Source of the DNA: Hellea sp.
Lineage (GTDB): Bacteria; Pseudomonadota; Alphaproteobacteria; Caulobacterales; Maricaulaceae
DNA length: 64,000 nucleotides
NCBI GenBank assembly: GCA_020629545.1
Contig: JAHDDC010000001.1
Span: 62,001 to 126,000, forward strand
Direction: 5' to 3'
Shown here: in pieces, positions 43,135-48,190 of the stretch
Numbering within the stretch: the stretch's first letter is position 1
Layout of the letters: each line of letters starts with the position of its first letter
Translations under genes and position numbers: made by a program
The notes under the pieces: generated by a model
What the model saw: the letters and a program-made list of their open reading frames with translations, nothing else
The model's database searches: none
Told to the model about the DNA's origin: nothing

Positions 43135-46014
43135 ATGATGACCCTGCGCAAGAAATTAATTCAGACTTCAGCCTTTTTAGCCTGCTTTACGGCTTTAGCG
43201 GCCTGCAAGGCCCAAACAACCCTAGACAACCCGTCTGAGACACCAACGAAAGTACCGGCTGCTTCAGCCTCTATGTCCATCGATTTTGAGAAATACACGC
43301 TCGACAATGGTTTAGATGTTGTCTTACACGTTGATCGTTCCGATCCAGTTGTTGCAATTAATATTGCTGCACATGTTGGGTCAGCACGAGAGACTGAAGG
43401 CCGAACAGGTTTTGCTCATCTCTTTGAGCATCTCCTATTTCTCGATAGCGAAAACCTGAAATATGGCGGATTGGACGAGATGAATACCCGCATCGGCGGC
43501 GAAGGGACAAATGGATTTACCACCCATGATATGACCCAATATTTCCAGGCTGTTCCCAAAGATGCACTTGAGAAAGTCATTTGGGCAGAAGCCGATAAGC
43601 TTTGCTGTTTTATAAAAACAGTCTCACAAAATGTCATCGACAATGAAAAGCAAGTCGTCAAAAACGAAAAACGTCAAAGAGTTGATAATCAGCCCTATGG
43701 GCATAACCTCTATATCATCAATAAAGCCCTCTATCCCAAAGACCATCCGTATAATTGGCAGGTTATCGGATCGCTTGCTGACTTGGACGCAGCATCTCTT
43801 CAAGACACACAGGATTTTTACAAAAAATGGTATGTCCCCAATAATGTCACCCTCACTCTCACAGGCGATTTTGACATGGCTGAGGCAAAATCCCTGATCA
43901 GTAAGTATTTTGGAGACATTCGTCGAGGAGATGAGATTAAGCCCTATGAGGCCAGGCCCAGCGATTTGACTGAAACCAAGAGCCTTTATCACGAAGACAG
44001 TTTCGCAACTGTACCGCAACTTACCTTGGTCTGGCCATCTGTACCGCAATATCATCCGGACAGTTATGCGCTCAATATTTTGCTTGAATATCTGACAGAC
44101 GGAAAGCGAGCGCCCATGTCTGAAGTATTAGTCGATGAAGAAAAACTCACGAGCAGCGTTAGCGCGTTTAATTATGCCAAGGAAATCGCAGGTGAATCCT
44201 ATGTTTTCGTGACGGCAAATGAAGGTCAGGACCTTGACCCGATAGTTCCAGCTATTGGAAAAGCCTTTGCACGTTTCGAATCAAACGGCATATCTCAAGC
44301 TGATCTAGATCGAATCAAAGCCGGACTGGAAGTTAGTTTTTACAATGAAATGCAAAGCGCGCTCGGCAAAGCTATTTCCCTGAGTGAGTATAATCTGTTC
44401 ACGGACGACCCTGGTTTTATCTCAAAGGACATAGCCGGAATGCAAGGTGTCTCAACAGCCGATGTTATGCGGGTTTATAATAAATATATAAAGGATAAGC
44501 CTCACCTTCTGACAAGTTTCGTTCCAACAGGCAAACTGGATCTGGCGCTAGAAGGATCAATTAAGGCAGAAGTTGTAGAAGAAAAAGTGGTCGCCGGCGA
44601 AGGTGCACCAGTCGATTTTGATCCTGCCGCACGTGTTATCGCTGATCCAACACCGTCAAGCTTTGACCGAACGATCGAGCCTGACTTTGGAGAAAGCTAT
44701 ACGTTACCATCGCCAAATGTTTGGAGAGACTCCCTGCCCAATGGTATCGAAATATATGGCATGCATAGTGACGAAACGCCTTTGATCTATTTTTCTTTAA
44801 AAATTGATGCCGGCAATTCTCGCGGCGACTTTGACAAACCAGCTATTCCCGACATGGTTTCAGCTATGCTCAAAAAAGGCACTGCCAATAAAACGACGGC
44901 TGAACTTGAAGACGCGATCAAGTCACTTGGATCTACGATTTCAATTTCTACAAGCTCTAACGGAACGTTTCTGACCGGTAACACGCTCGCTCGAAATTTT
45001 AATGCGACGATGGAGCTCGCTCAGGAAATACTGTTGGAGCCAAGGTGGGACGCGGAAGAATTCGATCTTTTAAAGCGTAAACTTGCGTCTGACATTGATC
45101 AGGCTGCCGCGAATCCAAATGCAATCGCATCCCGGGAAATGGCAAAACTTCGATATCCGGAAGGTCACATTTTACGGTATGCCTATTATGGCCCTAAGGA
45201 CAAACTCGAGACCGTAACCCTTGAAGACCTTAAAGCATTCTACGAAACCAATTACACCCAGAACAATGCTGTTCTTCGCATCGTTGGTGACATAAAAAAG
45301 ACAGATGTAAAGTCGGCGCTAAGCTCCTTATCAAATGGATGGGATAAACCGGCACCAGTGGACATCAAATTAGCTCAGCCTGCGCCTGTCTCAGAGTCTA
45401 AGATTTACTTTTACGACATCCCCGGCGCCAAGCAATCTGTATTGCGAATGGAGCGCCAATCGATGACCGCTCTCGACCCAGATTATCCACTTGTCGGCGC
45501 TATAAATTTTCCGCTTGGGGGAATCTACACATCAAAACTCAATACGGAACTTCGCGTCAATAAAGGCTATACTTACGGCATTCGGTCTGCGTTTAGCGGC
45601 GACAAAGATCGCGGCTTTTTTACCGTAAGCTCGTCCGTTAGGACCAATGTCACCAAAGAGTCCCTTGAACTCATCAATCAGATCGTCAGTGATTACGGCC
45701 CTGAATTTACAGAAGATGACTTGATTGGTTTGAAAGACGCTTTAAGCCGTGGCCAAGCGCTCAAAAACGAAACCCTAAGTGATAAACTTGGCATGCTAAA
45801 TCAGATTAGCACCTATGGCTATCCTGTTGATTATAAAGCACAAAACTCAGAAAAAATTCAAGCCCTGTCTCTAGAAGACTTCAAGCGACTAGCTAAAGAA
45901 AATTTGCGACCAGATGCCATGCGCTATTTAGTTGTTGGTGACGCGGCGAGCCAAGCGGACGGGCTCAAAGACCTTGGATTTGGGGATCCCATAATGCTTG
46001 AGGTGCAGAAATGA
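43135..46014 (+). CDS. M16 family zinc metallopeptidase, lipoprotein
   Basis: 959 residues. The signal peptide ends in a lipobox (LAAC, Cys24), so the enzyme is probably anchored in the periplasm. The inverted zinc motif HLFEH spans residues 95-99, with the distal Glu further on in VIDNEKQVVKNE. Two M16 halves are fused; the C-terminal half lacks HxxEH, as is usual. ATG 43135 and 43138 are tandem, the latter having the better ribosome-site spacing. It overlaps the DUF4349 gene by 4 bp. Confidence 0.93.
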   Translation: MMTLRKKLIQTSAFLACFTALAACKAQTTLDNPSETPTKVPAASASMSIDFEKYTLDNGLDVVLHVDRSDPVVAINIAAHVGSARETEGRTGFAHLFEHLLFLDSENLKYGGLDEMNTRIGGEGTNGFTTHDMTQYFQAVPKDALEKVIWAEADKLCCFIKTVSQNVIDNEKQVVKNEKRQRVDNQPYGHNLYIINKALYPKDHPYNWQVIGSLADLDAASLQDTQDFYKKWYVPNNVTLTLTGDFDMAEAKSLISKYFGDIRRGDEIKPYEARPSDLTETKSLYHEDSFATVPQLTLVWPSVPQYHPDSYALNILLEYLTDGKRAPMSEVLVDEEKLTSSVSAFNYAKEIAGESYVFVTANEGQDLDPIVPAIGKAFARFESNGISQADLDRIKAGLEVSFYNEMQSALGKAISLSEYNLFTDDPGFISKDIAGMQGVSTADVMRVYNKYIKDKPHLLTSFVPTGKLDLALEGSIKAEVVEEKVVAGEGAPVDFDPAARVIADPTPSSFDRTIEPDFGESYTLPSPNVWRDSLPNGIEIYGMHSDETPLIYFSLKIDAGNSRGDFDKPAIPDMVSAMLKKGTANKTTAELEDAIKSLGSTISISTSSNGTFLTGNTLARNFNATMELAQEILLEPRWDAEEFDLLKRKLASDIDQAAANPNAIASREMAKLRYPEGHILRYAYYGPKDKLETVTLEDLKAFYETNYTQNNAVLRIVGDIKKTDVKSALSSLSNGWDKPAPVDIKLAQPAPVSESKIYFYDIPGAKQSVLRMERQSMTALDPDYPLVGAINFPLGGIYTSKLNTELRVNKGYTYGIRSAFSGDKDRGFFTVSSSVRTNVTKESLELINQIVSDYGPEFTEDDLIGLKDALSRGQALKNETLSDKLGMLNQISTYGYPVDYKAQNSEKIQALSLEDFKRLAKENLRPDAMRYLVVGDAASQADGLKDLGFGDPIMLEVQK

Positions 46015-46943
46015 GACGACTATTACTTGCAGCTTCTCTGGCACTGAGTCTAACCGCTTGCAATGAGACTGGCTCCAATTATGCAGGGAGTCCTGAAATG
46101 GTGTCTGACAGCGCGATGATGGAAGTCATGCCGCAGATGTCAAAGCACAGCGCCGACTACGCAGCAGGCACTAGTGGAACGGGCGGAGCATCACCGACAA
46201 CGCCGCCTCCTGCTACCAATAGCGACAATCCGACTAGTCAAAGCTTCATGGCCTATCGATATATATATAGCTATTTTATGCCGACTAAGAATGTTGAGCC
46301 AATATCCAAAACACATGCTGATATGTGCCTCAACGCTGGCCCCGATGTTTGTCAGGTTTTGTCCTACGGGACACAAGCTCATTCTGATGATTTTGTGTCA
46401 GCGCATTTACGCATTCGCGGAACACCGAAATGGCTTGAAACCTACAAGGCAAATATTGCAGCCTCCGTCGATGAGGTTAAAGGGGAACTTAGAAACTCCT
46501 CAGTGAACGCAGAGGATCTGACCCGGGCCATATTGGATACCGGCGCAAGGCTAAAGGCTAAGAAAACTTTACGAACACGGCTTGAAAACCATCTGGAAAC
46601 CCGCGATGCCAAGCTGGGTGATCTATTATCGCTAGAGCGCGAGCTAGCACGAGTTCAAGGCGAAATAGAGAGCGCTACGTCAACCCTCAATGTTCTGCGA
46701 AAACGTGTCAGTATGTCAGTCGTGGAGATCAGCTATCAAAGTCGGTCCCAAGCTGTAACCCGCGGCACATTTACGCCGGTCATTGAGAGTTTAAGGGGGT
46801 TTTTGGGGAATATGGCCCAGGCCTTATCCTATGTAATCAATTTTATTGCCGTATTACTACCCTGGTTAATATTCGTCATTCTACCACTCATCTGGTTGCT
46901 GCGTTGGATTTTGCATCGGCGGCGCAGTAAGGCAAAATCATAG
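46011..46943 (+). CDS. DUF4349 family lipoprotein
   Basis: 310 residues. The signal peptide ends in LTAC (lipobox). The middle portion (about 120-260) carries RIRGTPKWLETYKANI and a charged coiled coil (DAKLGDLLSLERELARVQGEIES), and a membrane helix lies near the C-terminus (about 275-300), followed by RRRSKAKS. This is the DUF4349 layout. The function is unknown. It is the second gene of a three-gene operon. Confidence 0.85.
   Translation: MRRLLLAASLALSLTACNETGSNYAGSPEMVSDSAMMEVMPQMSKHSADYAAGTSGTGGASPTTPPPATNSDNPTSQSFMAYRYIYSYFMPTKNVEPISKTHADMCLNAGPDVCQVLSYGTQAHSDDFVSAHLRIRGTPKWLETYKANIAASVDEVKGELRNSSVNAEDLTRAILDTGARLKAKKTLRTRLENHLETRDAKLGDLLSLERELARVQGEIESATSTLNVLRKRVSMSVVEISYQSRSQAVTRGTFTPVIESLRGFLGNMAQALSYVINFIAVLLPWLIFVILPLIWLLRWILHRRRSKAKS
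46928..46932 (+). promoter_or_regulatory. ribosome binding site supporting an ATA start for rluA
   Basis: TAAGG lies seven bases before ATA 46940, which overlaps the upstream TAG stop as ATAG, the same geometry as the usual ATGA coupling. No ATG, GTG or TTG in the rluA frame precedes the conserved region. Confidence 0.45.
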
Positions 46944-47593
46944 ACCCATTTATCTATGATCCTCCAAAAGTACCGCTGGACATCATATACAAGGATGCAG
47001 ACCTTATTCTTGTAAACAAGCCTAGCGGCCTCTTAAGTGTGCCCGGCAAAGCCCTGAATCATCGTGATTGTCTTGAGACACGTTTGCGGGAACAATATTC
47101 GGATGCGTTGTTAGTTCACAGATTGGACATGTCGACATCCGGGATCATGATATTTGCCCGCAATAAGAATGCTCAGCGCCATTTAGGACTTCAGTTTGAA
47201 AAACGATACATTCAAAAAGCTTATCAGGCCGAAGTCTGGGGAATTGTTCATGCGCAAAGCGGACACATAAATTTACCCTTGATATGCGACTGGCCCAATC
47301 GACCCCGCCAAATTGTAGACTTTACAAGTGGCAAGTCTGCTCAAACCGACTGGGTAGTCCTCGAACAAAAGACGCTTACTACTCGGCTTTCGCTACTTCC
47401 AAGAACCGGTCGATCTCATCAACTAAGGGTACATTGCCAGGCGATCGGATATCCGATCATTGGAGATCGGTTTTATGCCCCTGATGATGTACTTAAAGCT
47501 TCTGAGCGACTTATGTTACACGCTGAGACGTTGAAGTTTAGGCATCCGCAAGACGGTAGGTGGTTGGAGTTATCCGCGCCCTGCCCGTTTTAA
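46940..47593 (+). CDS. rluA: RluA-type pseudouridine synthase, apparent AUA start
   Basis: 217 residues from ATA 46940, close to the 219 of E. coli RluA. NKPSGLLSVPGK, VHRLDMSTSGIMIFA (catalytic Asp), LPLICDWPNRPRQ and GRSHQLRVH are typical of RluA, which modifies 23S rRNA position 746 and tRNA position 32. The first canonical start, GTG 47039, would delete IYKDADLILVNKPSGLLS, which belongs to the fold. The start at ATA or the preceding ATC is my inference. The 3' end overlaps hdaA on the other strand by 24 bp. Confidence 0.8.
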   Translation: MDPFIYDPPKVPLDIIYKDADLILVNKPSGLLSVPGKALNHRDCLETRLREQYSDALLVHRLDMSTSGIMIFARNKNAQRHLGLQFEKRYIQKAYQAEVWGIVHAQSGHINLPLICDWPNRPRQIVDFTSGKSAQTDWVVLEQKTLTTRLSLLPRTGRSHQLRVHCQAIGYPIIGDRFYAPDDVLKASERLMLHAETLKFRHPQDGRWLELSAPCPF

Positions 47594-48190
47594 ATAAGTC
47601 GAAACGAATGTGCGCGTCACATCTTTTTTAACGGCTCGAGCCGCTTGATCAATCTCAGAGACAAGTGTTGAGACGGCCGGAACTGAACGGTCAAAATGGG
47701 TATAAATAAACTTTACGACATCCGCTTTTACCGATCGCCCCTGATCTTCAAATATCTTTCGAATAATAGGCTCCAGAATGTCCTCATCAGGCTCTGCCAT
47801 TGTAAAAACCGGTATGTAGTTCAACCTGGATCGCAAATCAGGTAGTGAAATAACCATCTCAGCCGGCAAATAACGACTTGTCATTAATAAAGCGGGTATT
47901 TCGCCATTTAAGGCTTTGTTGATCCAATTAAAAAGGTCTGTCTCTTCAATATCTTCAATATCATCCAAGAACACTTCCTGTCCCGACGACGAATTCAAAG
48001 CGTTTAACCAAGCAGACCCCAGATGAGTCTTGCCACATCCCTGTGGGCCGCAAATTAAGAGTACCGGAGCAGGCCAATCGGGATAGGCCTTAACCGCGCG
48101 AAGCGCTTCGACATTAGTTTTCCCAGCTAAAAACTGTTCGAAGGAATGCTGAGCCGAAGGTGTGAGGTCCAGAGGGTATTGATCAGGCAT
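47570..48190 (-). CDS. hdaA: DnaA regulatory inactivator, HdaA-like
   Basis: 206 residues, a truncated DnaA-like AAA+ ATPase. Walker A GPQGCGKT (residues 48-55), Walker B-like VFLDDIEDI, and a YTHFDRSVPAVSTLVSEID sensor II helix. It lacks the DNA-binding domain IV of DnaA. HdaA promotes hydrolysis of DnaA-ATP on the sliding clamp and limits re-initiation. N-terminal DLTPSAQHSFEQF likely includes the clamp-binding region. It follows the DUF2066 gene by 8 bp. Confidence 0.88.
   Translation of the reverse strand: MPDQYPLDLTPSAQHSFEQFLAGKTNVEALRAVKAYPDWPAPVLLICGPQGCGKTHLGSAWLNALNSSSGQEVFLDDIEDIEETDLFNWINKALNGEIPALLMTSRYLPAEMVISLPDLRSRLNYIPVFTMAEPDEDILEPIIRKIFEDQGRSVKADVVKFIYTHFDRSVPAVSTLVSEIDQAARAVKKDVTRTFVSTYLKRAGRG

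Follow-up and report, generated by a model that had tools for sequence, protein, structure and literature searches.

A probable AUA start codon, overlapping the upstream stop codon, for an RluA-type pseudouridine synthase gene in Hellea

The gene for IF3, infC, commonly carries a rare start codon under the control of IF3, and in Escherichia coli it begins at AUU and is autoregulated. AUA starts are already known elsewhere, namely those of infC, ccpN and citZ in Staphylococcus aureus (PMC13009471), and the rluA gene discussed here probably adds to them. The available text of that report describes conserved use of AUA for infC and ccpN, mentions autoregulation of infC, shows by reporters a lowered output for ccpN and citZ, and places AUA reporters at ~10% of AUG, the ccpN value rising to as much as 30% in rich medium. 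For overlapping genes, coupling by reinitiation is described for 14 pairs in Haloferax and E. coli in the accessible part of a second paper (PMC6728339), and a third, likewise available in part, describes IF3 as accepting strong third-base pairs while excluding weaker ones (PMC10158994). Nothing on rluA was found in the available portions of these three papers. A light search of titles and abstracts found no AUA start of rluA, and no paper on IF3 and AUA start codons in alphaproteobacteria was found.

The rluA locus and its product

The window, which is the whole stretch of 64,000 nucleotides of Hellea DNA analysed here, holds three tandem plus-strand genes in the order M16-like, DUF4349 and rluA. 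The features that matter for the start of rluA are as follows.

43135 to 46014, plus strand: M16-like peptidase gene, a 959-codon open reading frame named from its sequence
46011 to 46943, plus strand: DUF4349 gene (PF14257, E 2.8e-35)
46928 to 46932, plus strand: TAAGG, a Shine-Dalgarno-like motif 7 bases before the ATA, including an in-frame TAA
46940 to 46942, plus strand: ATA, the probable start codon of rluA; the homologous codon is ATA in 5/9 and TTG in 2/9 same-genus loci
46941 to 46943, plus strand: TAG, the stop of DUF4349, with two bases in common with the ATA
46940 to 47593, plus strand: rluA, RluA-type pseudouridine synthase, 217 codons plus stop (last sense codon ending at 47590)
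47039 to 47041, plus strand: GTG, the first in-frame ATG, GTG or TTG of rluA, rejected as the start; it lies after YDPPKVPLDIIYKDADLILVNKPSGLLS

The M16-like and DUF4349 genes overlap as ATGA (46011-46014), and since DUF4349 ends with the TAG at 46941-46943, its overlap with the rluA start reads ATAG. The original prediction had likened these two junctions to one another, and its coordinates for both are confirmed, as is its placement of TAAGG seven bases ahead of the ATA. It had also held that no ATG, GTG or TTG lies between the upstream stop and the N-terminal region of RluA, and this is indeed the case: the TAA at 46928-46930 closes the rluA frame, only GGC AAA ATC follows before the ATA at 46940, and the first canonical codon, GTG 47039, already falls within the conserved fold. 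A gene caller restricted to ATG, GTG and TTG would start the protein at that GTG, with the loss of 33 residues of the conserved region. At the other end of rluA, a DnaA/Hda-like gene lies on the minus strand (47570-48190), facing rluA and covering its final 24 bases (47570-47593). A search with ARAGORN gave no tRNA in the window.

By its sequence, the product is an RluA-type enzyme. It contains PseudoU_synth_2 (PF00849; 104.3 bits against a cut-off of 26.8, E 9e-30) and passes the cut-off of TIGR00005 (194.4 against 192.7). The best NCBIfam family is PRK10158 (RluA), whose equivalog is the tRNA Psi32 / 23S Psi746 synthase, and because the score of 233.6 bits lies below the equivalog cut-off of 286, we call the product RluA-type without assigning it a substrate. 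Among solved structures, E. coli RluA (2i82, E 1.9e-63) matches best. The alignment with 2i82 begins at residue 6 of the ATA-started protein, with Y-D-P-P against Y-N-P-P, and includes the conserved stretch that precedes GTG 47039. The predicted length of 217 had been equated with that of known RluA proteins, and this agrees with the 217 residues of the 2i82 chain and the 219 positions of the PRK10158 profile.

The start codon among relatives

All ten genomes searched within the genus match the query, and nine rluA loci were counted, since one genome (G003) has only weaker matches that resemble other pseudouridine synthases (best E 1.1e-19). The proteins of the same-genus loci are 53-68% identical to RluA of the window, and one copy (G009) is partial, ending at the end of its contig. 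The codon homologous to ATA 46940 is ATA in five genomes (G000, which is that of the window, and G002, G004, G008 and G009) and TTG in two (G001 and G007); the original prediction had proposed asking whether close relatives have ATG at this place, and 0/9 do. In the window, G008 and G009, the interval from the upstream stop to the ATA holds no ATG, GTG or TTG and also no CTG. In G002 and G004 the rluA frame is open into DUF4349 and holds canonical codons there, so an upstream start is possible and these two loci are insufficient proof by themselves. The remaining two loci make no use of the homologous codon, which counts against the AUA reading: G006 has AAG, with an ATG nine codons upstream, and G005 has CAT, with a GTG two codons upstream. 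On balance, we put the probability that rluA starts at AUA 46940 at roughly 0.87. The proposal that the gene begins there is thus supported by the same-genus comparison, and the retention of so odd a start in several related species suggests that it is real.

Three other codons might serve instead, given that ATC 46937 (immediately before the ATA), CTG 46976 and GTG 47039 all exist in frame. Initiation at one of these is improbable, however: the ATC is present only in the window and G008, its place being taken by CAT in G002, AAC in G004 and TAC in G009; the CTG is CTA in G008 and GTA in G009; and the GTG lies past the conserved N-terminal strand, such that its use would remove the part that aligns with the solved RluA.

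The sequence context of the ATA is less consistent. AAGG stands at the window's spacing in G004 and G009, and AAAG in G002, and no AAGG-like motif was found at that spacing before the ATA of G008. The Shine-Dalgarno-like AAGG of rluA is weak as a motif, and this counts against an AUA start. Predicted folding energies around nine starts range from -4.9 to -16.3 kcal/mol, with -12.5 in the window, and so give no support for an unusually open start region there.

Substitution rates were compared in the 28 pairs formed by eight rluA sequences, the partial G009 copy being omitted. The dS is undefined through saturation in 25/28 pairs and 3.8-5.9 in the other 3, dN is 0.11-0.32, and dN/dS is 0.023-0.071 in the 3/28 pairs with a computable dS. 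With dS saturated and dN low, it follows that the ATA codon has persisted for a long time and that purifying selection acts on rluA. ATA makes up 20/84 of the Ile codons after the start in these genes, and if an Ile codon drifted freely, finding ATA five times in five would have a probability of ~0.001 for independent rows, although the rows here are not entirely independent. The window genome is a draft of 155 contigs with an estimated contamination of 7.46%, which might raise the suspicion that the ATA is an assembly error or that rluA has decayed. Either is hardly credible, as the same codon is found in five separate genomes, the 217-codon frame is intact, and dN is far below dS. A base error that hides an ATG, which had been named as a possible refutation, is practically excluded because separate species have the same codon.

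The history of the codon can be read only in outline. A tree of RluA alone is mostly unresolved, with 10/14 inner branches open. An unrooted tree of M16 and RluA combined was made for the nine genus members, three outgroup loci being dropped where M16 was absent from the stretch; it groups G001, G005, G007 and G008 (99.2/97, SH-aLRT/ultrafast bootstrap), with G000, G002, G004, G006 and G009 on the other side in a poorly supported inner order. Within the first group, G007 (TTG) and G008 (ATA) are sisters at 100/100. Given this topology, ATA is either old and later changed to TTG, or was gained repeatedly.

Beyond the genus, a RluA match at E 1e-40 was found in 75/137 genomes of the family (76 with G009), and among the matches listed entire genera (g6, for example) show none, a pattern that suggests rluA has been lost repeatedly. 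A single rule was applied to 71 family loci (9 from this genus and 62 from elsewhere in the family, with G033, G034, G035, G036 and G039 left out), namely whether a canonical start occurs anywhere from the upstream stop to the start of the conserved I-Y-K-D strand. Three of the 71 have none, and these are the window, G008 and G009, all with ATA at the same codon; the corresponding counts are thus 3/9 in this genus versus 0/62 in other genera of the family, and in other lineages 0/80 rluA loci lack a canonical start. Outside the genus, ATA occupies the aligned codon in 1/62 loci (L155), where an ATG immediately precedes it. Four of the 11 loci examined in genus g17 have a canonical codon at the aligned place, ATG at L037, GTG at L138 and TTG at L143 and L144, with other codons in 7/11; judged from the alignment, these canonical codons mark the position as a start in g17.

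The stop/start overlap and the rarity of such starts

M16-like homologues stand upstream of rluA in 9/9 same-genus loci. DUF4349 lies between the M16-like gene and rluA in 4/10 genomes (window 46011-46943; L006, L007 and L199), which are also the only genomes of the genus, several of them incomplete, in which it was found. The remaining five rluA loci have the M16-like gene immediately ahead of rluA, and DUF4349 has therefore been gained or lost at this position. Wherever DUF4349 is present (4/4), its stop overlaps the ATA by four bases, as ATAG in the window and as ATAA in G002, G004 and G009. In G008, which has no DUF4349 in front, the M16 stop lies 7 bases before the ATA.

The overlap places its own demands on the codon. 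Because the third base of the overlapped start doubles as the middle base of the stop, only A or G can stand there, and the permitted pairs are ATG with TGA and ATA with TAA or TAG; with AUA as the rluA start, the stop is accordingly UAA or UAG and not UGA. This constraint from TAA or TAG accounts for part of the conservation of ATA in the four overlapped loci; it leaves unexplained why all four have A, and why G008 has ATA. In the window, a change of the start to AUG would give ATGG and abolish the upstream stop, and the rare start may thus be locked in by the AUAG overlap.

The same geometry invites the thought that rluA has no start of its own, and that -1 frameshifting before the DUF4349 stop yields a DUF4349-RluA fusion. 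In favour of this, the overlap brings together frames that differ by -1, and a short A run (GCA AAA) occurs in the window two codons ahead of the DUF4349 stop. Yet by eye the final codons of the four overlapped loci show no slippery heptamer in common, G008 has the ATA and lacks a canonical start without having DUF4349 in front, and a fusion would not account for ATA or TTG at the codon in 7/9 loci. We therefore consider frameshifting very improbable and retain separate initiation at the AUA as the preferred reading.

How unusual such a start is was assessed by a scan for missing starts, which set 812 kb of the window genome (3.59 Mb in total) against 967 kb of G004 (a genome of ~2.6 Mb) plus another 278 kb of DNA from the genus. 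Open reading frames conserved ahead of their first canonical codon were flagged, and the flags were judged by eye. Among 325 conserved frames evaluated, 20 were flagged, and the convincing one is rluA; the other 19 appear by eye to be fragments, antisense shadows or alignments that extend beyond a canonical start close by. When the scan was run in reverse from G004, 310 frames were evaluated and 20 flagged, of which the convincing one is infC; rluA of G004 was also flagged, owing to its frame being open into DUF4349. By design, the scan misses genes that keep an upstream canonical codon, such as infC of the window genome (TTG). Starts of this kind are rare in the scanned genome parts.

The scanned part of the window genome showed no general loosening of start-codon use.

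Two conserved short frames among those flagged, L277 (G004:C13) and L221 (G000:C35:20001-40000), start within conserved sequence and have a broken or mis-assembled look; by eye, one of the pair is HemB-like and the other rhomboid-like.

In this respect infC is a classic rare-start gene. Its ATA stands behind AGGAG in 9/9 loci of the genus (L177-L185; L181 is that of the window genome, G000:C39 ~8029), and in 4/9 the interval from the upstream stop to the ATA is free of ATG, GTG and TTG. No infC match was found in G008. Thirty further infC loci of the order, which are the best-scoring ones and not a random draw, have ATA in 16, ATC in 3, and CCT or CCG, with ATT next, in the other 11; at several of the ATC and ATT loci an ATG occurs a few codons downstream, so the start may lie there instead.

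A possible mechanism and comparison with known systems

From these features we infer that rluA is likely translated by termination-reinitiation at an AUAR overlap, with weak, IF3-sensitive initiation. Ribosomes ending DUF4349 at UAG 46941 would sit over the AUAG, step back one base and restart on the AUA with initiator fMet-tRNA, and the UAAGG seven bases upstream may assist in this. Because the third base of the codon mismatches the initiator anticodon CAU, the AUA should initiate only weakly and be held in check by IF3, presumably by the rule thought to govern infC, which is also AUA-started in the genus. The outcome would be a low supply of RluA, coupled to upstream translation and sensitive to IF3, and the AUA start may help to hold RluA at this low level. 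One can imagine going further, such that rluA and infC form a small IF3-responsive set of AUA-started genes in the genus, RluA tracks free IF3 and upstream translation, and the conflict within AUAR keeps rluA weak, with AUAG locking it in the window; we regard this larger picture as speculative and rather unlikely. In the AUAA and AUAG geometry the start and the stop share the deciding base, and this makes the relation between start strength and stop choice directly testable.

If the assignment is right, rluA would provide a natural, conserved case of an AUA start in a gene other than infC. Within the genus, the rare-start infC is the nearest likeness, having the same AUA codon in 9/9 loci; it differs in carrying AGGAG upstream in all nine and in coding for IF3 itself, whereas rluA has a weaker Shine-Dalgarno-like motif and a stop/start overlap. 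Relative to the ATGA pairs, as set out in the available part of their description (PMC6728339), rluA shares the 4-base stop/start overlap and, in at least 3/4 overlapped loci, an upstream Shine-Dalgarno-like motif; unlike them, its start is AUA and its coupling is proposed from the arrangement of the genes. Lastly, rluA resembles infC, ccpN and citZ of S. aureus in the use of AUA as a natural start, read here from sequence. The gene and the lineage differ, and the S. aureus starts, in the accessible text of the report (PMC13009471), have an extended Shine-Dalgarno sequence and were mapped by initiation profiling, whereas that of rluA has a short one and overlaps the upstream stop.
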